In this document: in pieces, positions 16,627 to 54,435 of the stretch
Layout of the letters: each line of letters begins with the position of its first letter
Numbering within the stretch: position 1 is the stretch's first letter
Source of the DNA: Paenibacillus oceani
GTDB taxonomy: Bacteria; Bacillota; Bacilli; Paenibacillales; NBRC-103111
NCBI RefSeq assembly: GCF_014705615.1
Contig: NZ_JACXJA010000041.1
Coordinates: forward strand, 1 to 64,000
Reading direction: 5' to 3'
DNA: 64,000 nucleotides
Position numbers and translations under genes: made by a program
The notes under the pieces: model-generated
The model's database searches: none
Seen by the model: the letters and a program-made list of their open reading frames with translations, nothing else
Told to the model about the DNA's origin: nothing

Positions 16627-16647
16627 GCCGAGTGGGGAGCACGTCCA

Positions 16648-17529: not shown

Positions 17530-17598
17530 AAGAGTGGAAAATGCTTCAATTAGAAGCTTTTCTATATAAATCTCATTTTTTTAGGAGGGGTTCGGGAG

Positions 17599-19161
17599 AT
17601 GAAGGAATTAAAGAAAGGCCTATGGTTAATGGCGGTTGGTTCCGCTATCATGATCGGCGCGGCAGGATGCAGCGGCTCGGAATCAGACTCGGGCAAGCAG
17701 TCAAGCTCGGCGCCGACAGAAGTGTCATCGTCAACAGCCGTATTTCCGCTTAAGGAAAAGGCTTCGTTCGAAATTTTCTCCGCCGCTCACGATACGAAAC
17801 CACAATCGGGCAATGAACCTATTTTTGCCGAAATTGAAAAGAGAACGAATGTACAACTGAAATTGATCAATATTCCCAATGCAAGCTACGCCGATAAATT
17901 CAAGGTGACCCTGGCTTCCGGAAATTTGCCGGATGTCATGGATTCGGACGTCGCCTCGGCGAAAAGGTACGGCATGGATGGAGCTTTCCTGGCGCTGGAC
18001 GAATTGCTCAAAAAGTTCGGTCCTAACATTTTAAACTCGATCAAGGATGAGGGAGTGGATGCTTCTTTGCGGGCCTCTGACGGGAAAATCTACGGCATTC
18101 CCTATTTTACGATGCCGGGAGTCACCGCTACCGTCCCGCAATACAGGCAGGATTGGTTGGATCAAGTAAATTTGAAAGCCCCTACAACGCCGGATGAATT
18201 TTATAAAGTACTCAAGGCTTTCAAAGATGCCCAATTGGGCGGTAAGGACACGATTCCGTTCGCTCCGCAAGGATTTAACAACTTTCCGGTCTTCAGGTCG
18301 TTTGGAACGGATCCGCGCATGTATCTGAATAGCGATGGCGAGTACCAATATGGTCCTGCACTCCCCGGGATGAAAGAAGCGCTGACCTTCTTGAACAATC
18401 TATACAATGAAAAATTAATTGATCCTGAATTTGCGATCATATCCAAGCAGCAATGGGAAGCCAAAGTTAGCAAAGGCCATGTGGGAGCCATCTACTTTAA
18501 CCCGGCCCGTACCGATTTCTTCACGGATGTACTTAAGAAGGAAAATCCGAAAGCCAAGATGGTGGGCGGCGGAGCGATCAAAAATAAAAATGGAAAAGGA
18601 GAGCTGCTGCCCGATTATAGCCTGAAAGGCGTTATGGCGATTTCGTCCAAGTCCAAAAACGCGGAATTGATCGTAAAATACTATAATTTCTTGTACAGCC
18701 CCGAGGGCAAGCTTCTGACGCAATATGGCATTGAAGGAACGAGCTACACCATGAAAGACAGAAAACCGCAATATACAGATGAATTCAAGAAAAATATCCA
18801 GAATAGTCTCACCAATATAGGCTTAGGTACAACCAAATATTTCTTTACCGCTCCCATGGAGAACCTGTTCAAAGATCGCAATGAAGGCACGTTAATGGCG
18901 GATGCCGTAGAGACTTCAAGGCGAGATTGGACCAAGCAGGAGCCGCAACTGAGCTTTACTCAAGCAGAGCAGGAACTTGTATCCAAAAACCTGCAGCCGA
19001 TTCAGGACAAAACAAGCGAGTACATGATCAAGTTCATCATTGGCCAGGAACCGTTGTCTAACTTCGATAAATTCGTCGGAGAATTGAAACAGCGCGGCTT
19101 GGATGAGTTGGTCAAGACTTATAATGCAGCGTATCAACGTGCTTTGAAAGCCGCCCAATAA
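17599..19161 (+). CDS. sugar ABC transporter binding lipoprotein (LipO/YtcQ type)
   Basis: Solute-binding lipoprotein of 520 residues, the long form that accompanies LplB/LplC permeases. The signal peptide ends with a lipobox (IGAAGC, Cys near residue 24), then a Ser-rich linker and the mature domain with ASGNLPDVMDSD, DGKIYGIPYF and YSPEGKLLTQYGIEG. The ribosome site GGAGGGG precedes ATG 17599. It belongs to a different subfamily from the three orphan binding proteins elsewhere in this window. It should deliver the oligosaccharide to the two permeases just upstream. Confidence 0.93.
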   Translation: MKELKKGLWLMAVGSAIMIGAAGCSGSESDSGKQSSSAPTEVSSSTAVFPLKEKASFEIFSAAHDTKPQSGNEPIFAEIEKRTNVQLKLINIPNASYADKFKVTLASGNLPDVMDSDVASAKRYGMDGAFLALDELLKKFGPNILNSIKDEGVDASLRASDGKIYGIPYFTMPGVTATVPQYRQDWLDQVNLKAPTTPDEFYKVLKAFKDAQLGGKDTIPFAPQGFNNFPVFRSFGTDPRMYLNSDGEYQYGPALPGMKEALTFLNNLYNEKLIDPEFAIISKQQWEAKVSKGHVGAIYFNPARTDFFTDVLKKENPKAKMVGGGAIKNKNGKGELLPDYSLKGVMAISSKSKNAELIVKYYNFLYSPEGKLLTQYGIEGTSYTMKDRKPQYTDEFKKNIQNSLTNIGLGTTKYFFTAPMENLFKDRNEGTLMADAVETSRRDWTKQEPQLSFTQAEQELVSKNLQPIQDKTSEYMIKFIIGQEPLSNFDKFVGELKQRGLDELVKTYNAAYQRALKAAQ

Positions 19162-27706: not shown

Positions 27707-28001
27707 ATGAGTGCTTTTGTAGCCTCGACGTGGAATCTGACGAATTTGTAGAATTTGCGTGCCAAGTGAGAATAGAAGACCGTCCTGGAATCGGGAGAAA
27801 CGTAGAATTATAAATCCGCTTGGAAAATGATTAATTGAAAAGAAGTAAGCGGTTAATTATGATTTTCTTAACTCGATGGGATCCTAACCCAATGCGACAC
27901 AATACTTACGAATTTAGTGGAGAGGGGAGGGGAATCGAAACAATCGCTTAGACGGTTTTTAGGTGAGCAGGCTCAAGATCAAAAGGGAGGATTGTATTCG
28001 T

Positions 28002-31000
28002 ATGGTGAACAAAGTGAGACCAAACATGAGATTATGTTTTGTTGTTGCATTGTTAATTTCGCTTGTATTTCCAAGTACAATATTTGCGGCCTATACGCAC
28101 GAGCCTGTTGAGGTTCAAAATCCGGCATCGCCGATCAAGATATCGGTGAACGGAAAAATCGTGAAATCGGATGTACCGCCTAAGTTTATCGACGGTAAAA
28201 TATGGGTGTCTGCCGAGGCGATGGCTCATTATTTATATTCAGTCTTTTATGAGTCTATCGATCGCAAACAATTTGTGATGAGAAACGATTATTATGAAAT
28301 GACCGCCATTTACGGAAGCAACCAAGTCACCTTAAAAAACGGCTCCACGATTACTACAATTCCTACCGAAATGCCCTTTAAAGAAGGCATTAGAAGCTTT
28401 ATCCCACTGGATACGCTCATGTACGCGTTCGAAGCCACATACACATGGAATGCCTCTAGCAATACGGCAGAAGTGCTATATGATGAAAACCGGCATATTA
28501 CCGACGAAGCCGCTGTACCGGTAGCTGTACCGGGTGTGGATATAACAGCTGTGGGCAAATCGAGAGACGTCTACTATAGCATTCCAGTGAGCGATCTGAG
28601 CGCCCAAGTCACGGTATGGCGGAAGTCGTCGGATCCGCAAAACTATGTTATCCCCCTTCGACCCAGAAATACGGGATACGCTTGGGTTGAAGCACCAAAG
28701 CCTCGATATAATGCGGCAACCGGCGCCTTCGAAGGAGGTCTTAGTTACGCAGCCGGCGTTGGCGGCAGTAACGAAGTCATTCGAGTGAAAATTAAATACT
28801 CGGACGGTATTACGCCGGATAAGGTGTTTAAAACCATCGTTTCCACTACCAGCCAAGGTTATAATCATATACCAGATTACGCGTTTCATTTAAGGAGTAC
28901 GTTCAATAATATAAGCGTGTATGTGGATTATTTCGGATATACTTCCGAGGATAAGATTACGTATACACTTCCGATCGCAGCTCCTAACACCATGCAAGTG
29001 GTCCTGGACCCTGTCAATGAGGTGAAGTTCAGGAAAGTAGGAACGGTTCCATGGGAAGAGGGCCTTCCACTGGCCTTTGATTCGATTAACCAGCATTTCA
29101 GAGGCTCTATCGTCGGTCTTGACCCCGATACGGAATATGAAGTGCAAGTGAAAATCCTCAATGACAATTCCACATACACCGGAACCATAAGAACATGGAA
29201 AGAAAACGTCCCCATTGCTGCGACGATCCCGATCGCATCCATCTATGAGCCGGGAAAACCGCTGTCCGTTCAAGGGCTGCATGGAACTGAAAACGGGTAT
29301 ATCCGCATTATAGGAGACGGAAGCACCGTAATCGAAGTAACCGATGAATATTTGGAAGCGGTCCTGATCGCGCAGTCCGAATATGTGATTTTGGAAAACT
29401 TAATCATCCGGGGAGGCAAGAAAAGCGGGATATCGGTTCTCAGTTCCAGCCACCACATCCGAATTATCAATAGCGATATATCCAATTTCGGAAGAGAAGC
29501 GACCCTATACTTAGGTAAGCAAACGATTGCCAATCATGCGGATCCGAATCTGGCTGTTGACTTGCGCACAGGGCAAATGTACGCTGCCAACGCCATGCCC
29601 GTCAACAATGACTCCGGTATTCATGTAAGCGATGCAAGCTATCTCGTCATCGAAAAAAACTATATTCATGATGCCAAAACCAAATCCAATGCATGGAACG
29701 CTGGCGGAGGCAGAGGATGGTACGAAAATGTGCCAGGGTTCTTCGAATGGAACGAAAAACATCCGCAAGGTGTAAGCGGCATGTATGCTAGAGGAGGCGT
29801 CGGCGTCGTCATTCGATACAACGATATTATTGGTAGCGACGACCACCGTTTTAACGCTCTTATTGAAACGTATGGAAATCACGATACAACCGGCGGTATT
29901 GGAGTCGATTCCGACGTGTACGGAAACTACTTGGCGTATGGTCAAGCCGACAGCATGGAATTGGAAGGCTCGAATATGAACGTAAGGTTTTACAACAACA
30001 AAATTGAGGGTGTCTCTGGCGGCTTAGGCATGGATTCGGTTTATATAGGTCCCGTGTATGTGTATAGAAATCTGATTCAAAACCTGGGCGACGAATGGGG
30101 ATTGATTCAAGGAGTTACCAAGCACGGAACAGCTCCTAATGAATGGACTAAGGGGTTGGGTGTGAACTATTTGTTTAACAACACCATTCTCAGTTCAATG
30201 GGTCATATCACCCGGAAAGACGGTCAACTGTACAGACCGTTTTATAGGAATAATATTATAGAGTCCATCGATAGTCCTGTTGGCGGCCAAAACGTCATTA
30301 CACTTAAACACATTTACAATTATCCTGGTGTCAGCTACGATTATGACTTGATTAACGGAGCTTCGACATCCACGAACGCCACTGGTACCGGCGGACCTGC
30401 GCCTATTGTGGAGCCCAATGGAGTCACCGGGGTCAAAACCGGTACCGCCTTTGCTCCTGATTCAAGCAAAAAGGCAACATTCATCAACAGAAACGAAGGA
30501 AACTATGTCCAAACAAGCGGGAGTCTAGGTTTTGATGCGGGTACAACCATTCCCAATTTTGTAACTTCGACCGACTACACCGGAGCCGCCCCTGATATTG
30601 GAGCATTCGAAAGCGGCAAGGACGTGATCGTTCCTACCAGACCAACCGCTTTAAGATCAGATGGAGGTAAGTATCAGGTTAATGTTACTGGGAATACGAC
30701 TCAGCAAGTCATTATAAAAACAGCTGGTGTTCCGACCGGAACCCAGTATGATTTGTTGAAGAACCGAGACTACGATTGGTTTACCGTAACAGATTCATTA
30801 GGGAATACGAAAGGCACGATAACGTCTGGTGTCGACTTGGTACTCACTGTAACAGGATATCCTAAGAAAATCGGTAAAAATTTCTTGGGTGAACAATTCG
30901 GAAAAACGATAACAAAAGGTCTTGCTGACCTTGCTAATTCACCTGCTAATGTATTAACGGGGCAACCGGCAGTAGGTAAAGGTGCCTTCCTTGTTAAATT

Positions 31001-31838
31001 GGACGATGGCCTTTCTCTGCCGATTTCGGTTTATGTTACGGAAGGCAGCTATAATGCGAGTCATACCCTTACCTATATTAATGGAGCCATTGTTCAAAAT
31101 GTGACGGTTCTTGCAAACGGAATGTCGCTCGGCCAAACGGTTACACCACCGACCCCTACAAAAGAACTATTTGCCTTCTTAGGCTGGTATGACGAAACGT
31201 ACGCGCACAAGTTTGATTTCAGCAAACCCGTCGAAGCAGATACCGTCCTGTATGCCAAATGGATGCCGGACACCACTCCACCTGTTACCACTGCAGCCGT
31301 AACCGGAACGGCCGGATCGGGCGGTTGGCATACGTCGGACGCCACGGTTTCGCTCTCTGCCGCATATGATATTGCCGGTATACATGCAACCAACTATAAG
31401 TTAAACGTCGTACAGAGCGTTTACGGCGTCCTGCCGACGAGCGGGTTTGTGCCCTACACTACTCCGATTGTGCTTGGTGACGGCATTTACGAAGTGCAGT
31501 ATCGCTCCGTAGATAAGGCAGGCAATCTCGAAACCGTCAAATCGATAACGTTGAAGTCCGATAAGATTGCACCGACGTTTACGGTATCGGCGAACGGAAA
31601 TCCGCTGCATGACGGCGCGGTGTTTGACGACAGCCAGCCCGTTACGCTGAATGTGCTAAGCGGAGATAGCTTATCCGGTGTGGCATCTCAGGTGGTAACT
31701 GTCGATGGATTGCCGCACGTGCCGGGAACACCACTGAATTGGGCAGGTCAGCTAGGAACGCATGTCATTCAAGTAACAGTAACAGATCAAGCAGGGAACA
31801 CAAGTCAAAGGACGACGATTGTTACCGTTATCGATTAA
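28002..31838 (+). CDS. secreted right-handed beta-helix protein with Ig-like and InlB-type repeats
   Basis: Extracellular protein of 1278 residues. The signal peptide ends near residue 29 (STIFA). Residues about 40-155 resemble the copper-amine-oxidase N-terminal-like (stalk) domain, followed by beta-sandwich and fibronectin-like regions. Residues about 425-865 are a parallel beta-helix of the pectate-lyase/chondroitinase B type (YVILENLIIRGGKKSGISV, HHIRIINSDISNFGREA, YLVIEKNYIHDAKTKS). Next comes an InlB B/Flg_new repeat (LGWYDETYAHKFDFSKPVEA) and two C-terminal Ig-like domains with SVDKAGNLE and TVTDQAGNTS. ATG 28002 has AAAAGGGAGG upstream. It likely degrades or binds a polysaccharide outside the cell; no SLH or sortase signal is seen. 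Confidence 0.85.
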   Translation: MVNKVRPNMRLCFVVALLISLVFPSTIFAAYTHEPVEVQNPASPIKISVNGKIVKSDVPPKFIDGKIWVSAEAMAHYLYSVFYESIDRKQFVMRNDYYEMTAIYGSNQVTLKNGSTITTIPTEMPFKEGIRSFIPLDTLMYAFEATYTWNASSNTAEVLYDENRHITDEAAVPVAVPGVDITAVGKSRDVYYSIPVSDLSAQVTVWRKSSDPQNYVIPLRPRNTGYAWVEAPKPRYNAATGAFEGGLSYAAGVGGSNEVIRVKIKYSDGITPDKVFKTIVSTTSQGYNHIPDYAFHLRSTFNNISVYVDYFGYTSEDKITYTLPIAAPNTMQVVLDPVNEVKFRKVGTVPWEEGLPLAFDSINQHFRGSIVGLDPDTEYEVQVKILNDNSTYTGTIRTWKENVPIAATIPIASIYEPGKPLSVQGLHGTENGYIRIIGDGSTVIEVTDEYLEAVLIAQSEYVILENLIIRGGKKSGISVLSSSHHIRIINSDISNFGREATLYLGKQTIANHADPNLAVDLRTGQMYAANAMPVNNDSGIHVSDASYLVIEKNYIHDAKTKSNAWNAGGGRGWYENVPGFFEWNEKHPQGVSGMYARGGVGVVIRYNDIIGSDDHRFNALIETYGNHDTTGGIGVDSDVYGNYLAYGQADSMELEGSNMNVRFYNNKIEGVSGGLGMDSVYIGPVYVYRNLIQNLGDEWGLIQGVTKHGTAPNEWTKGLGVNYLFNNTILSSMGHITRKDGQLYRPFYRNNIIESIDSPVGGQNVITLKHIYNYPGVSYDYDLINGASTSTNATGTGGPAPIVEPNGVTGVKTGTAFAPDSSKKATFINRNEGNYVQTSGSLGFDAGTTIPNFVTSTDYTGAAPDIGAFESGKDVIVPTRPTALRSDGGKYQVNVTGNTTQQVIIKTAGVPTGTQYDLLKNRDYDWFTVTDSLGNTKGTITSGVDLVLTVTGYPKKIGKNFLGEQFGKTITKGLADLANSPANVLTGQPAVGKGAFLVKLDDGLSLPISVYVTEGSYNASHTLTYINGAIVQNVTVLANGMSLGQTVTPPTPTKELFAFLGWYDETYAHKFDFSKPVEADTVLYAKWMPDTTPPVTTAAVTGTAGSGGWHTSDATVSLSAAYDIAGIHATNYKLNVVQSVYGVLPTSGFVPYTTPIVLGDGIYEVQYRSVDKAGNLETVKSITLKSDKIAPTFTVSANGNPLHDGAVFDDSQPVTLNVLSGDSLSGVASQVVTVDGLPHVPGTPLNWAGQLGTHVIQVTVTDQAGNTSQRTTIVTVID

Positions 31839-36897: not shown

Positions 36898-38316
36898 TTA
36901 TTCGCCAGTCGTACCGCCGACCAGGGCGCTCAATCGTTCGTCCAGCGTTTCCTCGTCCATCAGCTCCGACCAGAACAGCTTCAGCAGATGCGGCAGCTGC
37001 TTGAAGACACGAACCGGTATATTCAGCTCCGCGTGCACCCTGTAGGATGGAATGATTTCGCGGAACAGCGCGTAGTGTTTGGGCCGATTCAAGCCGCTAT
37101 CCGAGAAGTCGGTTTCCTCGGCAATCGCCTTGATCGCCGGAATGCTCAGCGATTCCCGGCGGATGATCTCCTGAGCTCTCGCCGAGGCTAAATAATCGAC
37201 GAACGTCTGTGCTGCGGCCTTACGCCCCGACTGCCGATTCACCATTACGCCGACCGTAAACATCAGTGTAGCCGGCCGATCCAGAAACGGCACGGGCGAA
37301 ATGTCATAATCGAGATCGGTGTGCTTGAAATCGTTCAGGCTGTTATACGGCGCCAGGAGCATCGAGATTTTGCCCTCCAAAAACAGTCGGCTCTCGTCCG
37401 TACTGCTCTCGGACACATAATTCGGGAAAATATCCCGATTGCGCGTCAGCTCTCCGCATAGCCGCACACCCTCCATCAGCTTCGTTCCCCGGATGCTGCG
37501 CAGCCGGTCCCCGTCCCACTCAAACGATTCCCCGCTTTGCAGCAAAAACAGCGGCCAGCGATTTTCCGAAACCTGAAAAAAGTAAAAGCCGTGTTTCTGG
37601 TTCGGCGTCGTCAGGCGGGCGGCCGCCCGCACCAGGTCGCTCCACCTCCAGCTCGAATCCGGCTCGGGCAGCCCCGCCTCGCGAAAATGCGTCCGGTTGT
37701 AGCACAGGACGACAGGCGAGAAGATGAGCGGCTGGGCGTACAGCACGTCGTCGATCGAATAAGCCGCGTTCAGGAACGGATACATATCCCCGCTTGCCTT
37801 CTGCGGCTCCAGCAGCCCCGTGTACCCGCTTTCCGCCAATTCGTTGAAACTCATCGTGTTGATAGTGAATACGTCGATTTCGTCCGCCTCCATATGTGCG
37901 CGGATCGCTTCAATGTACGTGCTGTTGGCGAAAGGGCGTTCGGCCGTGCCGGTTACCGGCTTAACCCGAATCGACGGGTGCAAGCTTTGAAAATCATCGA
38001 TAAGCCGTTCGAATACCAAATCCCTGGAGATCGAGGGCGTGCAGCCGACCGATACGACCGTCTGCTTGCGCTTCACCCCTTTGACAACCCGGCTGCCGAC
38101 TTTATCCACCTTTACAATGAAACCTTCCCCGACGAGAACATCCAACCCTTTGCGCACGGAATTATTGCTTAGCATGTACTGTTCGGCAAGCGCGCTCTCC
38201 GCCGGCAAATAGTCGCCCAGCTCATAGTGACCTTCGGTGATCTGAGTCCGCAATTGATCAATCATGCCTTGCAGACGGCTGCGAAATGTTTTGCGGCTCG
38301 CTTTTTCCTTCGCCAT
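36898..38316 (-). CDS. GntR-type DNA-binding domain fused to a sugar-binding-protein domain
   Basis: Protein of 472 residues with two parts. Residues about 8-75 are a GntR winged helix (GHYELGDYLPAESALAEQYM then LSNNSVRKGLDVLVGEGFIV). Residues about 82-455 are a type-2 periplasmic-binding fold like ABC sugar-binding lipoproteins: VSVGCTPSISRDLVFERLID at the start, DVFTINTMSFNELAESGYTG, and VVLCYNRTHFREAGLPEPDS before WRWSDLVRAAARLT, which lines up with LLYNRDIFDKFGVAYP and MTWDDIYELAKKMT of the neighbouring lipoprotein. No signal peptide or lipobox, so it is cytoplasmic and should use the binding domain to sense an imported ligand. ATG 38316 has AGAGGAG seven bases upstream. It is divergent from the binding-protein/lyase pair that it probably controls. 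Confidence 0.9.
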   Translation of the reverse strand: MAKEKASRKTFRSRLQGMIDQLRTQITEGHYELGDYLPAESALAEQYMLSNNSVRKGLDVLVGEGFIVKVDKVGSRVVKGVKRKQTVVSVGCTPSISRDLVFERLIDDFQSLHPSIRVKPVTGTAERPFANSTYIEAIRAHMEADEIDVFTINTMSFNELAESGYTGLLEPQKASGDMYPFLNAAYSIDDVLYAQPLIFSPVVLCYNRTHFREAGLPEPDSSWRWSDLVRAAARLTTPNQKHGFYFFQVSENRWPLFLLQSGESFEWDGDRLRSIRGTKLMEGVRLCGELTRNRDIFPNYVSESSTDESRLFLEGKISMLLAPYNSLNDFKHTDLDYDISPVPFLDRPATLMFTVGVMVNRQSGRKAAAQTFVDYLASARAQEIIRRESLSIPAIKAIAEETDFSDSGLNRPKHYALFREIIPSYRVHAELNIPVRVFKQLPHLLKLFWSELMDEETLDERLSALVGGTTGE

Positions 38317-38346
38317 AGAACTCCTCTTTTCTAATTCGGTTTCTAA

Positions 38347-38361
38347 ATTATATACCAATTA
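38347..38361. promoter_or_regulatory. candidate operator copy 1, overlapping the regulator promoter
   Basis: ATTATATACCAATTA recurs with a single mismatch at 38568-38582. On the minus strand it includes TATAAT, a likely -10 element of the GntR-fusion gene 31 bases upstream of its start, so binding here would repress the regulator itself. Confidence 0.4.
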
Positions 38362-38487
38362 CATTTGAATTAAAATAGTTGAACTCAAGGCGGAAAGGGA
38401 CTAATTAGCAGATGGGGATCGACAAAATCAATTACAATAAATAAGTTTTGCAGTAATCCTAATGCATATCTGATTATTATTTTGTGG

Positions 38488-38516
38488 TTGACAGCGCTTC
38501 CTCCTGTAAATAAAAT
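38488..38516 (+). promoter_or_regulatory. sigma-A promoter of the binding-protein/lyase pair
   Basis: TTGACA (38488-38493), 17-base spacer and TAAAAT (38511-38516). This near-consensus promoter faces the lipoprotein gene at 38835 and leaves a leader of about 310 bases. Confidence 0.65.
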
Positions 38517-38567
38517 GATGATATGAATTATATCGGAGGTGGAATGAATTATTTTTTGTAAAATTGC

Positions 38568-38582
38568 ATTATATATCAATTA
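38568..38582. promoter_or_regulatory. candidate operator copy 2, in the leader
   Basis: ATTATATATCAATTA differs from the copy at 38347 by one base. It lies about 50 bases downstream of the -10 box, where a bound repressor could block elongation. A strong AAGGAGG (38595-38601) follows, in front of a TTG-started frame (38606-38896) that resembles nothing known and overlaps the next gene; that frame is probably not a real protein. Confidence 0.4.
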
Positions 38583-38834
38583 AAACTACTTCAAAAGGAG
38601 GCGGTTTGACGCGGACAATGATTCGCGTCTATACGTCCCAAGCAGTTTTGGACGAGCGGGTTCGCCCCATGGCCGCAGTACCAGGCCGCAAGGATTGGAA
38701 CGTACAGGGTAACAGATTGTCCAGGAATCTATTAAAAAATGCGTCTGACTGGTTTCGAGGCGAACAGCGATTTTCAATAATGCGTCTGCAGCCGACATGC
38801 CGGAAGACGGCATATAAAAGGGGTCCATTTAACG

Positions 38835-40169
38835 ATGCTGAAACGATCATTTACGGTTATGACTGCAGGTATGATGCTGCTCGCCGCCTGCTCTAACGGA
38901 GGCACGCCGGCGGCGAACGAAGCCAATCCTCTCGCCGGAGGAGCAACGCCGGCACCGGTGCCGGAAGAGAAGCAGGAGCCGATCGAGCTGATGTTTTGGA
39001 ACTCGTCCTCGGGCGGAACGGAGCAAGGCTTCATGGACACCGTCGGGAATGCGGTCAAACAGAAGTTTCCGCACATTACGCCGAAGTACATCCCGACCGG
39101 CAAAGGAACGTTGATGCCCGACTTGATTGCGGCCGGCACGACGCCCGATATTGTGATGAGCTCGCTTCCCGGCATTTTTTCCGGCTATTTGGCCAACGGC
39201 ATGCAATATGACATGACCGAGCAGCTAAACAAATACAAATTAGATCTGAACCAGTTCGAACCGACGACGATCGCCCTTATCAAACAAATCTCGAATGGCG
39301 CCATGTTCGGTCTGCCTTACGGAAGCAATACGACGCACCTGCTGTACAACAGGGATATCTTCGATAAATTCGGCGTAGCGTATCCGACCGACGGCATGAC
39401 CTGGGACGACATTTACGAATTGGCCAAAAAGATGACCCGCACGGAAGGCGGCGTCCACTACAGGGGCTTCGCTTCGTCGCTGGAGCATCTGGAGATGACA
39501 AATCAGCTGTCGTTCAGTTTGGTCGATCCGAAAACGAAAAAGTCGACCTACGCGTCCGATGAAAAGTGGCGGACGTTTGTCGACAATCTCGTCCGTTTTT
39601 ATCAGATTCCGGGCAACGGGGTGGACGACAAGACGGTCTCCCAGGCGGCGCAGCTGGACGCCTTCCAGAAGGAAGGCACGGTGGCGATGTATGCGGGAAT
39701 CGTCGTTCCGGCGGAGTCGGTCACGGTGAATTGGGATATTGTGCGGCTTCCCGAATTTTCTTCAGCGCGCGGCATCGGCTCGCAGCCATACCCGAGCTAT
39801 ATGATGATTACCGGCACGAGCAAGCATAAGGACAATGCGTTCAAGGTCATCCAATACTTGACAACCGACGAGGAGTACTTGACCTCCAGAGCAAAGCGCG
39901 GGGCGATGTCGGCGGTGAAAAATCCGAAGGTGATTCAGGCATTCGGGCACGATTTGCCGCATTGGCAGGGCCGCAATATATTGAAAGCACGGTTCCCGGA
40001 GAAGCTCGCCAATCCGAGCGTATACACCGAATTCAACTCGGTCGCGCTGACCAAATATACGGCGAACATGAATGCGTTCCTGACCGGGAAAATTCCCGAT
40101 ACGAACACCGCTCTGCGGATGATGTCGGAGCAGGCCGATCAAGCGATCGCCGATGCGATGAAAAAGTAG
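38835..40169 (+). CDS. extracellular sugar-binding lipoprotein (orphan)
   Basis: Solute-binding lipoprotein of 444 residues. The signal peptide ends with a lipobox (LLAAC, Cys near residue 19) and a Pro/Ala-rich linker. The mature domain contains NRDIFDKFGVAYPTDGMTWD, RTEGGVHYRGFASSLEH and a C-terminal helical tail. It resembles the proteins at 4130 and 61866 throughout. No permease genes lie nearby; instead the next gene is a large secreted lyase. Together they look like a capture unit: the lyase releases oligosaccharides and the lipoprotein binds them for permeases encoded elsewhere. Control by the divergent GntR fusion is likely from the layout. Confidence 0.9.
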   Translation: MLKRSFTVMTAGMMLLAACSNGGTPAANEANPLAGGATPAPVPEEKQEPIELMFWNSSSGGTEQGFMDTVGNAVKQKFPHITPKYIPTGKGTLMPDLIAAGTTPDIVMSSLPGIFSGYLANGMQYDMTEQLNKYKLDLNQFEPTTIALIKQISNGAMFGLPYGSNTTHLLYNRDIFDKFGVAYPTDGMTWDDIYELAKKMTRTEGGVHYRGFASSLEHLEMTNQLSFSLVDPKTKKSTYASDEKWRTFVDNLVRFYQIPGNGVDDKTVSQAAQLDAFQKEGTVAMYAGIVVPAESVTVNWDIVRLPEFSSARGIGSQPYPSYMMITGTSKHKDNAFKVIQYLTTDEEYLTSRAKRGAMSAVKNPKVIQAFGHDLPHWQGRNILKARFPEKLANPSVYTEFNSVALTKYTANMNAFLTGKIPDTNTALRMMSEQADQAIADAMKK

Positions 40170-46269: not shown

Positions 46270-46380
46270 TTACTCATCATAAGGTCCAAAGACCTTGGCT
46301 TGTACGCAAAATCTAGCAGAATTTGTAGGTCTAACGTCACTATGGGCAGCATTGGTGTCTTCGTTATACTGATACAGTAT
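46270..46380 (+). ncRNA. possible riboswitch-like leader (c-di-GMP-I-like features)
   Basis: The leader of the giant SLH gene has a hairpin AAGGTC-CAAA-GACCTT (46281-46296), then ACGCAAA (46304-46310), GGTCTAA (46328-46334) and ACTATGGGCAGC (46339-46350), in the same order as the conserved joining segments of class I c-di-GMP (GEMM) riboswitches. A hairpin ATACTG-ATA-CAGTAT follows (46366-46380). I cannot find a convincing closing P1 stem, so this remains a guess that needs a covariance-model search. Confidence 0.3.
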
Positions 46381-46428
46381 GTATCTGTTGAATACATGAT
46401 GTATCTGGTGATGAGGAGCTGCGAGTCG

Positions 46429-49400
46429 ATGAATCGAATCGGAAGACGTTTTTGGAGAAAGATGACCGTATTATTGCTGGCCGTTGCGTTAATGGTGCCG
46501 GAGCTAGGTGTTGTATCGGCGGCAGCGGTGCCGGCGGACCGAGATCCGCTCGGTAAACTGGTCGCCAATGCGGTGATGAATGCGGTTTACGGCATTCAAC
46601 CGGTTAAGCCAAAAGCGGCGGCAGTCCCAGCACCGCCGCTCACATGGAACGTGCTGACTAAGCTGAACCGGGGGATGATTCCCTTGATTTATCAGCCTGA
46701 CTTTCAGCAGTTCAAACTAAGCAGCAAAGGACAGTTTATCGGTTTCAAACGAATGCTGCTGCTAAATAATCCGGTGTCGGTCAAACCGGTTATTACCGTC
46801 TACGATCGGGTAACGGGCATCATGGACGATATCCAAGTTCCAGCCGCTTCCCTAGGCGATGAAATGCTTTATTTTGACATGAGCGCAGATGCCCGTTACG
46901 TGGCTTTTACGTATGCTGCCGAACGTTACTCCATGAATCCAAAGATGCATGTTTATGTATTCGATCGGGAAGAACGAAGGCTGATCCCGATAACGGTACC
47001 ATTTGAAACTTCGGATTTCTCTGGAGAAAACAACCGGGTCAGCATCAGCGATAACGGCAATTATGTCGTCTTCGATTCCGATGCCAAAGGATTAGTGCCG
47101 GAGGATAACGACGAGTATCGCGACGTGTTCCTCTATAACCGAGCAGTCAATTCGCTTACAAGAATAAGCTCGCGTGCCGGCATGCAGGATTTCGATAACG
47201 GCAACAGCGAAGCGCCGTCAATTAGCGGTGATGGGCGTTATATCGCATTTCATTCGGAGGCCAACCTGACGGGACAAAGTCCGCATATCGGCCAGAGCGA
47301 CATTTATGTATTTGATCGTCTGGGAGGAGGCGGTTCTCCTTTTGAACGGATCAGTGTCGGCACAAACGGCGAAGAGGCTGACGGTCCGAGCACGCAGCCT
47401 TCGATCAGCGCGGACGGTTCATCGATTGCGTTCGAATCCTATGCGACGAATTTGGTGGACGGCACTACGAGTGGGGAAGATACGAAACATATTTTCGTCT
47501 ACAATCGGCCGGCCGGCTCCATCGTTCGCGTCTCGCTTGGTTCAGGCGGCGTACCTTTTACCCGCGACAGCTTACAACCGTCGATCAGCGATGATGGGCG
47601 TTATGTCGGTTTTCATCTGGACTCTGTATACATAGATGGAGACAATGATATTCCATACGAGGCTTATGCCGCCGACGTTGCGGCTCAGGTTGCATATAAG
47701 ATCACGGTGCAAAACGCGCCTTACCGTCTGGTTGGTCCGAGCATGTCTCCGGTGATTGGCAGTGGTGGAAAGCTCATTGTATACAGCTCGGATTATTTAG
47801 AATCGTTTGGCGGTTCGACGGAAGAAGACCCGCTTCCCGGCATCTTCATCGCCTCGCTCGGGTCAGCCCCGTCATGGCCGGCCGGCAGCAAGCTGGAAGC
47901 GACGATCCGGACGGACACGACGGTCACGCTGAGCTGGCAAAACGCATCGGATGCGGCAGGCATCCTAGGCTACCACGTCTATAAAGACGGCGAAAATATA
48001 GGTTATGTTCCGTTTGCGGGCGGCGGCTACGCGTTCACGGCAACGGGCCTAATGCCCATGACAGAGCATGTTTTTCAAGTCGAGGCCGTAAATGCGGAGT
48101 ACATCGAAAGTTTCGGCGGTCCGACTTACAAGCTTGGCCAGGGCGGAGAAAATCCGGGCAGCGTCTTGCGCGTTTCGTGGGATGTCGATAACATGCGCTT
48201 CGGATTGGTTATGCCGGACGGCAAGCTGAACATTACAGCAAACGACGAGCCAGGGAAGCAGGCTGCAGCAGAGCTGGTGTATACAGTATGGAAGGATGAG
48301 ACCTCCCAGGAGACGCGAAAAGCGGAGCTGACACTTGACGAACGAGTTGCTTCACCCGGCACTTACGGGGCGGACTGGGCGCTCCCGGACGGAGTCAGCC
48401 AGCTTACTTCCTTAACCGTGAAGCTGACCGACCCGGCTAGGCCGGCTGAGGCGAAGGAGAAGCAAGCCGACGGACTGCCGATTCAAGTTGCGGGGACGAT
48501 CGAGCTTCAGTTTGCTAACCGGGGAGACTCCAGTCTCGCAGGCAGTGTGCTGTCTGTCATGAACGGACAATTTGGGGAGCAGGTTTATCAACTGACCAAA
48601 TCGGATCCTTTTGCCATAAACGGGTTGTATCCGGGCAGAGACTATTCGTTCATTCTTCGTTCGCCGGATTACCGCCACATATGGGGAAAGCTGGAGCAGG
48701 TACGGACAGAGGCGGGAAAACGCAAGAAGGTTGACATGTTCATCGAGCAGCCGGCTAAGATCCGGTTCCAGGTCGTCGATCCGAAGGGAATGCCTGTATC
48801 CGGCGTCCGTCTGGAGTTATCCGGCCCGCAACAGCAATATCCCTTTTCCGACAACAGCGGCAGCGATGGCTGGAGCGGATGGATGGAAAACTTGAAAGCC
48901 GGAGACAAGGTTGTCGCCAAGTTCGATATCGGGGAAATGCTGATGGAGCCGGTGCCGAATCAAGAAGTCGTGCTAAAGCCGGGAGCGAATGAGCAAACGA
49001 TACGGTTAAAGGCGCCGGACGAAGGGATCGTGCGCGGCCACGTCAAATCGCCGAACGGGAAGGGGGTTAGCAACGCGCTTGTTACGTCGACCCAGACATA
49101 CCGGGGGCAGCAAATCGTACGCAAGGCGAGAACGAATCTGGACGGCGAGTATGTGCTATCTTTGCTGAAAGGCGAGACTAGGCTCGAAGCATACGAATCG
49201 TCCTATGAGTACAGCACGGACCGTTCAATTACCGCGCAGGTGACGGAAGGCCAGACGACAGTGGTGGATATTCCCGTTTTTCAGCCAAGCCGGGGCGTCA
49301 TCAATCTGGAGGTACGGCTGAAATATCTCGAGGATACCGATTACGGCGAACCCGTCAACATGGAACAGATGGGGATGTTGACCAAGCTGGAAACGAAGTC

Positions 49401-52400
49401 CGGGTGGATGACGGGATATTTTCATAATGCCTATCATTTCCAAGGGTCGCCCGGCGATCAAGTTTCCGTCTGCGTGACCGGAACCGTGCCGGCGCACATG
49501 ACCACCTGCACGCAAGTGACGCTCGATTCGAACGCTAACGCAACGGCTAAATTGTACTTGGAGGAAAAAGGCGCGCGCGTTCAAGGGCAGCTCGCTTCGG
49601 CCGGACTAGGCTTCGTATCCGGGTGGCTGTACAAAATGGAAAACGGGAGACGCATATCGCAATCGACGTACTTTGGAGAAGACAACGTTCATTCGGATGG
49701 GAAATTTAACATCAACGTGCCCGAAGCCGGCACCTACGTTATGGAGCTGTCTAGACGTACGGAGGAGCGCCCGATCCAATACCACTATGCGAATGTTCAG
49801 TTTACGGTGGCGGACAAACAAATATTATCGATCGGGACGGTCAACTTTAGCGAAAGGAACGTTTTTGCAAACTACAGCGGCAATACGTACGACGTATTGA
49901 ATAGCCGGATTGCAGCGGGAGAAACGGTGACGTTTAAAGCCGGATATAAGAACAGTGACGCTTCCGAAGTGGAGAACGTGACGCTGCTTTTCGATATACC
50001 GGAAGGTACGGCAGTAGTTAAAGACGGAACTGGCCGCCTGGTCGTGAACGGACTTCCGCAGGACGGAGAGGCGGTACTCGACGGCCAGACGCTTTCGGTC
50101 AAGATCGGTTCGCTGGCAAAGAAACAGTCCGGAACGGTTGGCTTCCAAATCAAAGCCAATCCGACGTTTAACCAAAGCTCGGCGAAATCTTCCGCCCGCA
50201 TTCGGGCTACAATCGGCGGGAAGCAGGTGGAGGAGACAATCGGTACCGTCTTGCTGGATGCCCCGTTGGTAACGCTCGAGGCGCCCGAACGCGTATATCA
50301 GCCGAAGTTCGCGGTCAGCGGAGTGGCGCCGAAGCAAAGCGTAGTGAAGGTATATGACGGCGGGCAGCTGCTGGGCAGTACGACGGCGGCGAACAACGGA
50401 TATTGGATACTCCAGGTGGAGCTGCCGGATTTAGGTGATCCCGGCATGCACGCCCTGCGCGCCGAAGTGGAAGCAAACGGCCTCAAGCTGCAGTCTTTGG
50501 TTTCCTATGTCAATTATGATACGAAGAAGCCGAGGCTGCTGGAGATGGCTATGGCGCAGGCCCCGGATGGCAAATGGATCACGATAGATACCAAGGACGG
50601 CATATCGAATCCTTTTTACACCGTCGTGCCGGGAAATCCGTTCCAGTTCGAGTTGAAGTTCGATGATCCGGACAAAGTCGAGAACGCATACGTCTATATG
50701 GACGGTCAGGCAGGCGAACCGGTCAAGGCCGTTCGGGACGGAGGAGTGTTTCGGGCGTTTGCACCTACGAATAAGGGAGCGCTTGGCAACATTTACGTCG
50801 ATTTCGAGTCGAAGCCGGAGCCGCTCCAATTGGACGGCAAATCTCCAACGATGGATGAAGTGCGGGCGTCGCTGCCGCTCACGATGCGCGATTTTACGGC
50901 AGAAGTAACGTCTCCCTTCGAGCTGAAGGACGGCAAATATTCAGGTACGGTGAAGCTGACCTTCCCGCAGCTCGACAACATGACGATGACCGTAACCCTT
51001 CGCTTGGAGCCGAATGCGAACTATTCGGCGACGAGCGAGGAGATTGCATTAGCGGAACGTTCCGGGGTACCCATGTATAACAGCTCCTTCACGCTTACGG
51101 AAACGGAGGACGGGTTCAAAACCGTCTCGAAAGGTTACATGCCCATGAACGTGTTGTTTCAGCAAGGTTTGCCTGCGGAAATGAAAGCTTCGCTTGGTGG
51201 CGTAAAGGTGCTTGACGCGGATCCCGTTTTTGCCGCCGTAGTAACGGAGAACTATGTGCAGTTTGGGCCGGATGGCGATAAGTTCGGCACATTCAATTCG
51301 GTCAAAAGCCAGTACGACGGCATGAAGGGATTCGCCGAAAAAGTCAATAAAATTACTTACAAAGTTCAAGCGAGCGGTCTCGATTGCCTCGCCGAGCTGC
51401 CGCGCACGGCCAAGCAGGCAGGCAAAGCGTTAGTTTCGCTTGTCGGCGGGGAGGTAGCCAAGTTCGGACTCGGCGCATGGACCGCGGCAATGGGACTTTC
51501 AGGTCCGGGAGCGATAGCCGCGGCTGGCACCTCGGCTGCAATCGGAGCGAAAATCGACGGTTACGTCGACAAGCAGATCGACGCGATCGGAACCGGCTAT
51601 AACCAATGTCTTAAAGAAGATGTCGACCCCAGCAAGCGGAAACGGTATAAAATCGCGCGTCCGCGCTGGATTTACGACCCGAGTGGATATATTTATGAAG
51701 CTGTGCCGGAAAACCGTCTGAGCGGCGTAAAAGCGACCGTTCTCTACCAAGATCCGGACAGTAAACAATGGACCGTATGGGATGCGAGACCGTACGAGCA
51801 AGTGAATCCGCATCAAACGGATGACCACGGCAAGTACGGCTGGGATGTGCCGCAAGGCAAATGGAAGGTCGTTTGGGAGAAGGACGGGTACGTGACGCAA
51901 ACGAGCGCGGAACTGGACGTTCCACCGCCTCATACCGAGGTGAACGCCGGACTTGTATCGTGGGAGGCACCCAAGGTGCTGACGGTTACCGGTGTGACCT
52001 ATGCCGGAGGCAGCAATGTGGATATCGAGTTTTCGAAATATGTAAAGGTGCATGAATCGGCTATCCCTTCGCAAGCAGTAACCGTAACGGGAACGGATGG
52101 CAGGGCGATAGAAGGCACTGTTGCCTTTGTTAGTCCGGTCAACAATCCAGCCGATCCTGACGGAGCCGATTTGTCGCGAGTCGCAAGATTTACGCCGAAG
52201 GCGGCGGTTTTCGTCGGTGATGGGTATACAGTGAAAGTGAATCCGAACTATTTCCAAAGCTACTCGGGCGTTTGGATGAATGGAGGGTTTACCGGCGCGT
52301 TTGCGGTCCAGTTGCGCGACGAACGCGGACCGGAGGCCATAAGCGCAAGCGTCGAGGCGGAAGGCCGGATCGTTCGTCTTACGTTCGATGAGAACTTGGA

Positions 52401-54435
52401 TGCCGCGGTTGATTCGGCGAAGTTTACTTGGAACGGCAGCGGCGAACTTATTGCATCCGCAGTGAAAAGCGCTTATGGAGACGACTTCAGGACAATCTTG
52501 ATCACCTTGACCGAACCGATGGGCATCGGCGGGTCATTGACCGTATTGCCGGGAGCGGTATACGATGCTGCAGGCAATGGGGCGGTGGAAAAGTCTCTGC
52601 AAGCGGCAAGAAACGTATTGTCGGAAGAAGCGCGGCTGAACTCGCTTCGTGTGGAGGAGGGCATGCTGTCGCTGGCCTTCGATCCCGAGAAGCTGAGCTA
52701 TTCAACATCGGTACCGTTGACAGCGGAGCAGGTGAGCATTACCGCAACGACAGCTCATCCGAAAGCGAAGCTCGTTATCGACGGAGTCGAAGCGGTGAGC
52801 GGCGTGTCGAAAACGGTGATCATCCCGGATAATGGCGAAATCGCGGTACGCGTCATCGCCGAAGACGGCGCAACTGTTCGGGAGTACTCGATCGGAATAT
52901 CCCGTGCAAACGAACCGGATCGAGACGCGGCATTGTCTGGACTCGCGGTAACGCCGGGTACTCTTGCACCTGCATTTGACCCAGCCAAGTTGGCATATGA
53001 AATAGAAGTAAGCTCCAGCGTCACGAGACTGCAAGTGACGGCTACTGCCAGCAGTTCGAAGGCACAGGGCTTGACGATTAATGGGGCAGCCGTAGTGAGC
53101 GGAGCGGTCCAAACGGTAACGATTCCGGCAAGCGGTCTAATTGAGGTAGTCGTAACGGCGGCAGACGGAACGACGAAGATGACGTACTCGGTCCGCGTGA
53201 AACGAACACCGGGAAGTTCGAATCAGGTAGGCTACATACCGGCAGAGCCGGCTTTGACCAACGCGGAGCCGTTCACCGCCCGGAACGGCGGATCGGGGCT
53301 GCGCATTACGCTGCAAAGCGATGCGATTGCTAAAGCTTTGCAAACTACTGCTGACGGCAAAAAGCAACTGACCGTCGATGTAACCGGGCAAGCAGACGAG
53401 TACGTGCTCCAGCTGCCGGCAAACGTGTTGGAAAAGCTGAAAAACAGCAAAGCGGAAATCATTTTCAGAACAAAGACGCTGCAAGCCTTGTTACCTTGGG
53501 AAATGATAGAAGCCGCACAAGTTCCATCGGGCGCATCAATCTCGTTCGGCTTCGGAGCAGCGTCTGCCTTGGAGGAGAAGACGGCCTTTGAAGCCGCCGC
53601 AAGTCAGAGCGGGAACGCCTTGAACCCGGTCGGGCATGCGATAGTCGTAATACTTGAAGTGAATCAAGGGCAAGAAACGACCGCCCTTGCGATTACGTCT
53701 GCGCATCCGATTATTTTACAGCTTCCGGTAAACGCGGTTCGCCAGGAAGCGATATACCGTCTGAACGGGGAGAATCTTACCTGGACGTACGTATGGGGCC
53801 AAATAAACGAAAGCGGCAGTTCCGCGACGATAGAGATGCAATCTTCCGGCACTTACGCGGTGATGGCCTATAAGAACCCGTTCGCAGATATCGCAGGTCA
53901 TTGGGGAGCGGCCGACATAGGCTGGATGGGACAGCGGCTTCTCGTTATGGGGGCTGCGCCTGGATCGTTCCTGCCCGATCAGACGATTTCACGAGCCGAA
54001 TTCGCCACTATGCTCGTGAGAGCGCTCGGATTGGAGTCATCGCCCGGCAGAAGCGGCGGCCGCTTTGAAGATATAAGCGATGAAGCTTGGTATAGCGCTA
54101 ATGTCAGAGCGGCAGCCGCGGCCGGATTAATAGACGGCGTCACGCCGGAACGTTTCGAACCTAACGCGCTAATTACGAGGGAGCAGATGGCCGTCATGGT
54201 CTGGCGAGCCTACGCACAAATCTACAAAATCAAGGGAGCGGAAGCCAAGTACAATTTGCTGCAGTCGTTCTCAGATCGCGGAACGATTAGCGAATGGGCT
54301 CGGGAAGCCGTTACTCTGTGCATCGAAACAGGGCTCATTCTCGGAACCGAACCGGATGCGTTTGATCCGCTTGGCCATGCGACAAGAGCGCAAGCAGCCG
54401 CAATTATGAAACGGCTGCTCCACCATGTAAATTAG
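46429..54435 (+). CDS. giant SLH-anchored multidomain surface protein
   Basis: Protein of 2668 residues, exported and wall-bound. Signal peptide to about residue 30 (GVVSAAA). Residues about 90-465: TolB/PD40-like beta-propeller (SISGDGRYIAFHSEANLTGQ and SISDDGRYVGFHLDS). Then a fibronectin III domain (about 483-569), carboxypeptidase-regulatory-like beta-sandwiches (about 867-929 and 1764-1849), a DUF11-like repeat (about 1143-1247), an Ig-like domain (about 1280-1350), a hydrophobic Gly/Ala stretch (about 1660-1720), SbsA-like Ig domains (about 1849-2057), two cadherin-like beta-sandwich domains (about 2067-2259) and three SLH modules (from about 2484: FADIAGHWGAADIGWMGQRL, FEDISDEAWYSANVRAAAAA, FSDRGTISEWAREAVTLCIE). 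ATG 46429 has GAGGAG upstream. Probably adhesion or substrate binding; no catalytic domain recognised. Confidence 0.88.
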   Translation: MNRIGRRFWRKMTVLLLAVALMVPELGVVSAAAVPADRDPLGKLVANAVMNAVYGIQPVKPKAAAVPAPPLTWNVLTKLNRGMIPLIYQPDFQQFKLSSKGQFIGFKRMLLLNNPVSVKPVITVYDRVTGIMDDIQVPAASLGDEMLYFDMSADARYVAFTYAAERYSMNPKMHVYVFDREERRLIPITVPFETSDFSGENNRVSISDNGNYVVFDSDAKGLVPEDNDEYRDVFLYNRAVNSLTRISSRAGMQDFDNGNSEAPSISGDGRYIAFHSEANLTGQSPHIGQSDIYVFDRLGGGGSPFERISVGTNGEEADGPSTQPSISADGSSIAFESYATNLVDGTTSGEDTKHIFVYNRPAGSIVRVSLGSGGVPFTRDSLQPSISDDGRYVGFHLDSVYIDGDNDIPYEAYAADVAAQVAYKITVQNAPYRLVGPSMSPVIGSGGKLIVYSSDYLESFGGSTEEDPLPGIFIASLGSAPSWPAGSKLEATIRTDTTVTLSWQNASDAAGILGYHVYKDGENIGYVPFAGGGYAFTATGLMPMTEHVFQVEAVNAEYIESFGGPTYKLGQGGENPGSVLRVSWDVDNMRFGLVMPDGKLNITANDEPGKQAAAELVYTVWKDETSQETRKAELTLDERVASPGTYGADWALPDGVSQLTSLTVKLTDPARPAEAKEKQADGLPIQVAGTIELQFANRGDSSLAGSVLSVMNGQFGEQVYQLTKSDPFAINGLYPGRDYSFILRSPDYRHIWGKLEQVRTEAGKRKKVDMFIEQPAKIRFQVVDPKGMPVSGVRLELSGPQQQYPFSDNSGSDGWSGWMENLKAGDKVVAKFDIGEMLMEPVPNQEVVLKPGANEQTIRLKAPDEGIVRGHVKSPNGKGVSNALVTSTQTYRGQQIVRKARTNLDGEYVLSLLKGETRLEAYESSYEYSTDRSITAQVTEGQTTVVDIPVFQPSRGVINLEVRLKYLEDTDYGEPVNMEQMGMLTKLETKSGWMTGYFHNAYHFQGSPGDQVSVCVTGTVPAHMTTCTQVTLDSNANATAKLYLEEKGARVQGQLASAGLGFVSGWLYKMENGRRISQSTYFGEDNVHSDGKFNINVPEAGTYVMELSRRTEERPIQYHYANVQFTVADKQILSIGTVNFSERNVFANYSGNTYDVLNSRIAAGETVTFKAGYKNSDASEVENVTLLFDIPEGTAVVKDGTGRLVVNGLPQDGEAVLDGQTLSVKIGSLAKKQSGTVGFQIKANPTFNQSSAKSSARIRATIGGKQVEETIGTVLLDAPLVTLEAPERVYQPKFAVSGVAPKQSVVKVYDGGQLLGSTTAANNGYWILQVELPDLGDPGMHALRAEVEANGLKLQSLVSYVNYDTKKPRLLEMAMAQAPDGKWITIDTKDGISNPFYTVVPGNPFQFELKFDDPDKVENAYVYMDGQAGEPVKAVRDGGVFRAFAPTNKGALGNIYVDFESKPEPLQLDGKSPTMDEVRASLPLTMRDFTAEVTSPFELKDGKYSGTVKLTFPQLDNMTMTVTLRLEPNANYSATSEEIALAERSGVPMYNSSFTLTETEDGFKTVSKGYMPMNVLFQQGLPAEMKASLGGVKVLDADPVFAAVVTENYVQFGPDGDKFGTFNSVKSQYDGMKGFAEKVNKITYKVQASGLDCLAELPRTAKQAGKALVSLVGGEVAKFGLGAWTAAMGLSGPGAIAAAGTSAAIGAKIDGYVDKQIDAIGTGYNQCLKEDVDPSKRKRYKIARPRWIYDPSGYIYEAVPENRLSGVKATVLYQDPDSKQWTVWDARPYEQVNPHQTDDHGKYGWDVPQGKWKVVWEKDGYVTQTSAELDVPPPHTEVNAGLVSWEAPKVLTVTGVTYAGGSNVDIEFSKYVKVHESAIPSQAVTVTGTDGRAIEGTVAFVSPVNNPADPDGADLSRVARFTPKAAVFVGDGYTVKVNPNYFQSYSGVWMNGGFTGAFAVQLRDERGPEAISASVEAEGRIVRLTFDENLDAAVDSAKFTWNGSGELIASAVKSAYGDDFRTILITLTEPMGIGGSLTVLPGAVYDAAGNGAVEKSLQAARNVLSEEARLNSLRVEEGMLSLAFDPEKLSYSTSVPLTAEQVSITATTAHPKAKLVIDGVEAVSGVSKTVIIPDNGEIAVRVIAEDGATVREYSIGISRANEPDRDAALSGLAVTPGTLAPAFDPAKLAYEIEVSSSVTRLQVTATASSSKAQGLTINGAAVVSGAVQTVTIPASGLIEVVVTAADGTTKMTYSVRVKRTPGSSNQVGYIPAEPALTNAEPFTARNGGSGLRITLQSDAIAKALQTTADGKKQLTVDVTGQADEYVLQLPANVLEKLKNSKAEIIFRTKTLQALLPWEMIEAAQVPSGASISFGFGAASALEEKTAFEAAASQSGNALNPVGHAIVVILEVNQGQETTALAITSAHPIILQLPVNAVRQEAIYRLNGENLTWTYVWGQINESGSSATIEMQSSGTYAVMAYKNPFADIAGHWGAADIGWMGQRLLVMGAAPGSFLPDQTISRAEFATMLVRALGLESSPGRSGGRFEDISDEAWYSANVRAAAAAGLIDGVTPERFEPNALITREQMAVMVWRAYAQIYKIKGAEAKYNLLQSFSDRGTISEWAREAVTLCIETGLILGTEPDAFDPLGHATRAQAAAIMKRLLHHVN

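Follow-up and report, generated by a model that had tools for sequence, protein, structure and literature searches.

The locus analysed here lies in a window of 64,000 nucleotides, the whole stretch of Paenibacillus oceani DNA that was studied. It raises the question of whether a GntR winged helix fused to a sugar-binding-protein domain acts as an intracellular sugar sensor, and whether this domain was recruited from the binding protein encoded next door. The open reading frame to which the earlier note had assigned the fusion is present, and both sequence blocks quoted there were found. The fusion of a GntR winged helix to a type-2 sugar-binding-protein domain is confirmed by Pfam: the matches to GntR, SBP_bac_8 (PF13416, 3e-18, 67 bits against a cut-off of 27) and SBP_bac_1 (PF01547, 6.5e-18, 66.2 bits against a cut-off of 26) all exceed the curated cut-offs (Table 1). 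The start codon is the ATG at 38316 on the minus strand, with AGGAG just upstream, and the stop codon occupies positions 36898-36900.

Table 1. Features of the fusion locus (positions in the window)
Feature	Position	Strand	Basis or remark
GntR-SBP fusion gene, regulator	36898..38316	-	472 aa and stop; ORF, Pfam domains
GntR winged-helix domain, residues 19-77	38086..38262	-	PF00392, 2.6e-12; same place in genome search
Type-2 solute-binding-protein domain (SBP_bac_1/8), residues ~101-406	37099..38016	-	Pfam and PDB relatives
Divergent intergenic region, 518 bp, with repeated operator-like words	38317..38834	.	Shuffles; three-sequence alignment
Operator-like word TAATTGGTATATAA by the fusion's own start	38348..38361	-	Exact pattern match; overlaps probable -10 box
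Sigma-A-like promoter TTGACA-17-TAAAAT for the lipoprotein gene	38488..38516	+	11/12 matches
cre-like word TGACAGCGCTT	38489..38499	+	Inside lipoprotein promoter
Near-palindrome GATATGAATTATATC, candidate operator	38520..38534	.	Directly after -10 box
Operator-like word TAATTGATATATAA in the leader of the lipoprotein gene	38569..38582	-	Exact pattern match
SBP_bac_1-family lipoprotein, 444 aa, divergent partner	38835..40169	+	PF01547, 4.2e-23; LAAC lipobox by eye
Large heparinase II/III-like protein, 1495 aa	40274..44761	+	PF07940, 6.1e-8; FIMAH, 2.4e-9

The genome of Paenibacillus oceani contains 37 GntR-SBP fusion genes, one of which is broken. The family alignment comprises 34 of them, 23-65% identical to the fusion of the window; it omits the broken gene, a fusion that has a long extension upstream and a fusion that spans two stretches. 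The N-terminal winged helix PF00392, by which the GntR superfamily is recognised, was found in the window fusion and in all 34 members, PF01547 likewise in 34 and PF13416 in 31 (Pfam, E ≤ 0.001). The solved structures nearest to the binding-protein domain in a sequence search of the PDB are Listeria Lmo0181 (5f7v, 1.8e-14) and, second, the arabino-oligosaccharide-binding protein 6rjy (6.2e-10). Neither SBP_bac_5 nor a type-1 (GalR/LacI-like) sugar domain is listed among the Pfam matches of the window fusion or the 34 members, and no effector domain of the FadR, HutC, MocR, YtrA, AraR or PlmA type was matched behind their winged helices.

Several known regulators combine a DNA-binding and a ligand-binding domain. 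SgrR works in the cytoplasm, and the sugar domain of AraR is of the periplasmic-binding-protein type. MBP, Lmo0181 and AbnE have the SBP_bac_1/8 signature and domain in common with the fusion, which differs from them in having no signal peptide or lipobox, in being joined to GntR and in forming a separate branch of the tree. The HutC subfamily (TreR, NagR) has the winged helix closest to that of the fusion by NCBIfam (TreR 2.1e-11, HutC 2.8e-10); both models match each of the 34 members, but the NCBIfam matches of the window fusion span the winged helix only, and UTRA is absent from the Pfam matches of the window fusion and the 34 scanned members. SgrR and its homologue DsvR, the latter according to its predicted structure, join an HTH to an SBP_bac_5 domain (PMC13060122), and SgrR is negatively autoregulated (PMC13060122, PMC7786190). 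The N-terminal HTH joined to a solute-binding domain is a feature common to these proteins and the fusion, but the available parts of the sources name SBP_bac_5 and no PF00392, whereas the fusion combines PF00392 with SBP_bac_1/8; nor is an expansion into many members with lipoprotein/lyase operons described there for SgrR and DsvR (PMC13060122). By analogy, the fusion would work like SgrR but is not a member of the SgrR family. The GntR subfamilies listed in the accessible part of one source are FadR, HutC, MocR, YtrA, AraR and PlmA; AraR, from Firmicutes, joins a GntR winged helix to a sugar domain homologous to GalR/LacI (PMC4494728). It thus resembles the fusion in its GntR helix and sugar-sensing domain, but this domain is of type 1, whereas SBP_bac_1/8 is of type 2. 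LysR-type regulators carry a PBP-II companion domain beside the DNA-binding domain, according to the available part of a survey of companion domains of prokaryotic regulators, the main text of which contains no words beginning with SBP or solute (PMC5882156); the winged helix of the fusion belongs to another family, and LysR_substrate is matched weakly in just three of the 34 members. Judged by its domains, the fusion belongs to GntR but to none of the subfamilies listed.

The fusion protein starts with the GntR domain, so that no export signal, neither signal peptide nor lipobox, precedes the binding-protein domain, in agreement with the claim that the protein is not exported, and this missing signal points to a cytoplasmic location. 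The signal peptide or lipobox and the association with a permease that characterise binding proteins of ABC importers were both absent from the window fusion. A hydrophobicity scan carries little weight here because the threshold was passed by the signals of only 13 of the 26 neighbour proteins; two fusions exceed it internally. Structure predictions from alignments of 2 and 3 sequences gave mean pLDDT values of 40.9, with the winged helix alone confident, and 48.9, too low for a pocket to be inspected.

The exported lipoprotein of the earlier note is present as the divergent neighbour, together with a large lyase-like gene, the former with an SBP_bac_1 domain and a lipobox, the latter with a C-terminal heparinase II/III domain. 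The lyase-like gene starts 104 bp past the lipoprotein gene, and the two genes form a probable operon. No permease was matched beside the lipoprotein of the window, the nearest listed PF00528 match being ~20 kb away. Two permease genes and the gene of a binding protein of 520 aa form an importer set (15721-19161, plus strand, Pfam) that is located ~20 kb from the fusion and could conceivably serve as the transporter of the orphan lipoprotein. Other plus-strand genes of the window encode a protein of 1291 aa (27963-31838) that combines copper-amine-oxidase N-terminal-like, beta-helix and Ig-like domains, followed by a beta-lactamase-family protein (PF00144, 31739-33445), and a protein of 2711 aa (46300-54435) whose domains are S-layer, cadherin-like and carboxypeptidase-regulatory-like.

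The lipoprotein had been called recognisably related to the fusion, which stands at the level of the superfamily and fails for any closer kinship. Pairwise BLASTP aligned 48 residues, 12 of them identical (27 bits, E 0.001). The lipoprotein is not among the 64 own-genome matches of the fusion at E ≤ 0.001, 22 of which cover the binding-protein part only (150 of 253 candidates scored), nor among the 25 of 66 comparison proteins matched by the domain of the fusion with phmmer at E ≤ 10. Because of this weak alignment and the absence from the match lists, relatedness to the lipoprotein is only superfamily-level. The aligned blocks represent a general binding-protein signature, equally clear in Lmo0181 (5f7v) and partly present in MBP.

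Repeated operator-like words were found in the intergenic region: their information-weighted score was reached by none of 40 shuffles (z 2.9). The operator pattern was written from the words TAATTGGTATATAA and TAATTGATATATAA themselves, and across the window it has 3 matches with two mismatches versus 2.03 by chance, a number reached by 30 of 100 shuffles. Operators of the HutC type are palindromes of the GT-N-TA-N-AC kind; the words TGGTATATAA and GATATGAATTATATC are present in the region and may or may not belong to this kind. Promoter-type matches number 4 versus 2.5 in shuffles. The word CGCTGTCAA overlaps the -35 of the lipoprotein promoter and looks like a cre box for CcpA. The region was aligned with those of the sister paralogue C43, 66% identical to the window fusion, and of a locus in Paenibacillus mesophilus (70% identical), the one locus detected by a scan of named genomes with a single-protein query, which finds close relatives only. 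TAATTCA within the word at 38520-38534 and CGCTGTCAA are invariant in all three, as is much of the word near the start of the fusion; at TATATAAT, the -10 box of the fusion could account for part of this conservation.

Repeated upstream 11-mers unequalled by 40 shuffles are present at 10 of the 37 fusions, including that of the window, versus 4 of 53 control regions, taken upstream of long ORFs that are only putative genes (Fisher p 0.018); the remaining 27 fusions have no upstream array at the 0-of-40 level of the information-weighted score. The words differ from copy to copy. By the plain count score, four sites were found at C9, C56:224616, C89:9261, C29:105984, C8:905, C63:14093, C89:71525 and C54, and only two in the window, the same as in its shuffles. 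At C8:905, C63:14093, C89:9261 and C89:71525 the four sites of the plain count score, with different words, are spaced 31, 83-84 and 19-30 bp apart; C63:14093 has another best word by the information-weighted score, at a value that 2 of 40 shuffles reach. Four copies with the same spacing (31, 83-84 bp) and four words suggest that recognition and operator drift together within a fixed geometry, which could also be explained by shared ancestry of the upstream regions. The 31-bp spacing occurs in 4 of the 37 loci (mean 0.29 per spacing), and 21 bp is equally frequent. Another 25 loci were taken from genomes of the genus (24) and from P. mesophilus (one), with L057 and L081 possibly one gene; in these, spacings of 41, 32 and 12 bp lead with three occurrences each, and 31 bp occurs twice (mean 0.23).

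The explanation that we consider probable is that the fusion is a cytoplasmic one-component oligosaccharide-sensing repressor of the lipoprotein/lyase operon and of itself. Without ligand, it would bind the repeated half-sites of the divergent intergenic region and repress both the operon and its own gene. Lyase products would reach the cytoplasm, where an oligosaccharide would bind in the cleft of the binding-protein domain; closure of the cleft would move the winged helices apart and lift repression, and catabolite repression would be added through the cre-like word that overlaps the operon's -35. In this scheme we infer the DNA contact at the repeated words, the sign of regulation, the ligand, the allosteric movement and the role of CcpA; the ligand may or may not be the same as that of the lipoprotein. 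The repeated words flank the lipoprotein promoter on both sides, as would also suit an activator that recruits polymerase to this promoter in its ligand-bound form; but a promoter near consensus, with operator-like words just downstream of its -10 box, suits repression, and activation appears rather improbable.

A sensing role is consistent with the variability of the binding-protein domain. Fusion residues 155, 156 and 251 align to positions Asp65, Arg66 and Tyr155 of the MBP chain, which we take to be ligand contacts, and among the 34 members they lie at the 100th, 90th and 97th percentiles of domain variability. The other pocket-equivalent positions are not extreme: residues 152, 249 and 250 lie at the 38th, 76th and 26th percentiles, and 200 and 324 are conserved. 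D148, P201, Y206 and N207 are fixed in all 34 members, R253 is found in 33, W254 in 32, Y324 in 31 and S200 in 30, and F199 is nearly fixed too (30 to 33 of 34). Such a combination of hypervariable and fixed residues would be expected, as indirect evidence, of a retained sugar pocket with diversified specificity. It also speaks, in the form of fixed scaffold positions beside hypervariable pocket-equivalent ones, against a domain that binds nothing and acts as a mere dimerisation scaffold; with just one of the 37 copies looking broken, such a role is extremely unlikely.

The earlier note had proposed a survey for conserved pairing with binding-protein genes; pairing proved to be above chance and not universal. 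Of the 37 own-genome fusions, 13 have a stand-alone binding-protein gene at a distance of up to 600 bp (1.7 expected), 20 at up to 2.5 kb (6.5 expected) and 26 at up to 5 kb (11.9 expected), where the expectation takes the highest binding-protein density that the data allow and assumes even placement. In the available sequence, part of which is truncated at contig ends, 11 of the 37 fusions of the own genome have no such gene within 5 kb, and the same is true of 11 of the 20 from other genera. Heparinase II/III domains were found near at least seven fusions, including that of the window, in the selection of neighbours scanned. At the P. mesophilus locus, the divergent binding-protein gene is followed by a gene for a pectate-lyase-like protein (PF12708), and the sister paralogue C43 is paired with a binding protein of another branch and a pectate-lyase-like, not heparinase-like, protein.

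In other genera, 5 of the 20 loci consist of the fusion, then a same-strand binding-protein gene within 600 bp, then two permease-like genes, the first permease being PF00528 in all five (Pfam). A binding protein is present within 5 kb in 9 of the 20 loci, 8 of them with permease-like genes, the remaining permease-like calls having been made with a small model built from the permeases of the window. Since the five importer operons are the usual place of a regulator of the local importer, they were counted in favour of the sensor-repressor. The same position at the head of importer operons would suit a domain that senses transport activity or a membrane permease instead of free ligand, and binding proteins of the type-2 fold do dock on permeases. 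But the fusion would face the other side of the permease, no permease match lies near the window locus, and the strongly varying pocket-equivalent positions suit ligands; we regard permease sensing as very improbable. Regulation of a whole local sugar importer by the fusion is likely to be the older arrangement, and the genus of the window would carry many permease-free versions joined to lyase-like genes.

Among listed binding proteins of the own genome, a permease match within 4 kb was found for 0 of 15 located within 4 kb of fusions versus 28 of 117 far ones (Fisher p 0.04; scores cover 150 of the 193 candidates for permeases and 150 of the 348 for binding proteins). Permease-free cassettes as a hallmark of the fusions held only partly, most far binding proteins having no permease either: 89 of the 117 listed stand-alone ones have no listed permease within 4 kb. 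The own genome has at least 149 SBP_bac_1 matches, 10 of them in fusions, among the 150 of 348 candidates scored.

The origin of the domain was addressed with two trees. In the first, where the 37 fusion domains were combined with the 26 nearest binding proteins and 28 further ones, all 37 fusions lie on one branch without stand-alone proteins (label 0.926). The second adds 20 other-genus fusions together with 12 nearest 'partners'. Of the latter, L118:11989-13347 was rejected as a stand-alone partner, being itself a GntR-SBP fusion; all 58 fusions lie on one branch (label 0.98), and the smallest split with the 57 listed fusions also took in this 'partner' (label 0.618). It is encoded on the plus strand, 3.3 kb from another GntR-SBP fusion, L118:7155-8657, on the minus strand. 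Among the 26 own-genome pairs, there is none in which the fusion has its neighbour as the closest stand-alone protein; neighbours take ranks between 2 and 56 of 65, and the lipoprotein of the window has rank 17 of 54 and rank 10 of 65 in the two trees. For the 11 pairs from other genera that are left when L118:11989-13347 is set aside, including two with a distance of 6 kb between partner and fusion, the neighbours rank 19 to 64 of 66. The nearest case to recruitment is the broken fusion C89:71525. Its neighbour L050:14198-15313, second in closeness among the 65 stand-alone proteins, is a 371-aa binding-protein domain that has neither a signal peptide nor GntR; it could represent a remnant or else a binding protein in soluble form.

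The single branch of fusions, together with the absence of any own-genome pair in which the neighbour is closest, argues for one origin followed by copying and not for local recruitment: most likely, as far as these trees indicate, the fusion was made once and then duplicated as a unit. The earlier proposal that a local transporter binding protein had been recruited as the sensor was therefore rejected, the remote BLASTP kinship of the neighbour adding to the tree and rank results.

The trees of fusions and neighbours are uncorrelated (r -0.01, n 24, p 0.42; r 0.06, n 19, p 0.25; r 0.15, n 12, p 0.13 for pairs within 600 bp), where each pair is formed with the nearest binding protein, not necessarily the true partner, and n 24 results from 26 pairs after removal of one shared-neighbour pair and one neighbour of ≤400 aa. 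Identity-based distances give the same outcome. The trees not being congruent, a matched inside/outside pair for one ligand is unproven. In its full form, such a pair would consist of a lipoprotein and a fusion binding the same oligosaccharide, with the fusion domain derived from that transporter binding protein. The divergent adjacency in the window, in the sister paralogue and in P. mesophilus and the pairing above chance favour this arrangement, but the single fusion branch of both trees, the neighbour ranks in the own and other genera and the uncorrelated trees make it unlikely as a whole. The tree and rank tests speak against derivation and leave the shared ligand unaffected, which the sensor-repressor explanation does not exclude.

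The fusions account for 37 of the 73 PF00392 matches over the cut-off in the own genome (150 of 185 candidates scored). The family was found in all five genomes of the genus, with 6 to 34 matches each (E ≤ 1e-100), and relatives were found in 66 of 104 genomes of the window's family (E ≤ 1e-40) and, for the order Paenibacillales, in 97 of the 296 genomes sampled (E ≤ 1e-20). In a sample of the phylum, 5 of 398 genomes have matches at E ≤ 1e-20: besides the own genome, two belong to the window's order and two to other families; in the latter two the matches do not cover the GntR part, and matches spanning both domains are confined to that order. A full-text search of the literature, the reach of which included few subscription papers, returned no description of a GntR-SBP_bac_1/8 fusion. 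On the basis of these comparisons, the fusion is a GntR subfamily found here in the window's order only, a real one and, as far as the literature search reaches, undescribed. The 37 fusions have the look of an extended series of related sensors, responding to different complex sugars.

A wider reading, held tentatively and somewhat short of even confidence, is that of a lineage-specific library of one-component glycan sensors, in which the 37 genes, which make up half of those found for GntR regulators in the own genome, descend from one ancestral fusion, with a fixed scaffold, with pocket and operator words diverging copy by copy, and with partners swapped among mostly permease-free binding-protein/lyase cassettes. 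If this is right, the fusions would represent a new GntR subfamily beyond those of the cited papers and a second, larger case of the idea known from SgrR, a binding protein turned inwards as a regulator. Rules linking pocket to ligand and recognition helix to operator would then be readable by comparison of 37 natural copies beside candidate operators and enzymes, and fusion copies could become sugar biosensors. The fusions could also help to assign a polysaccharide to anonymous binding-protein/lyase cassettes.
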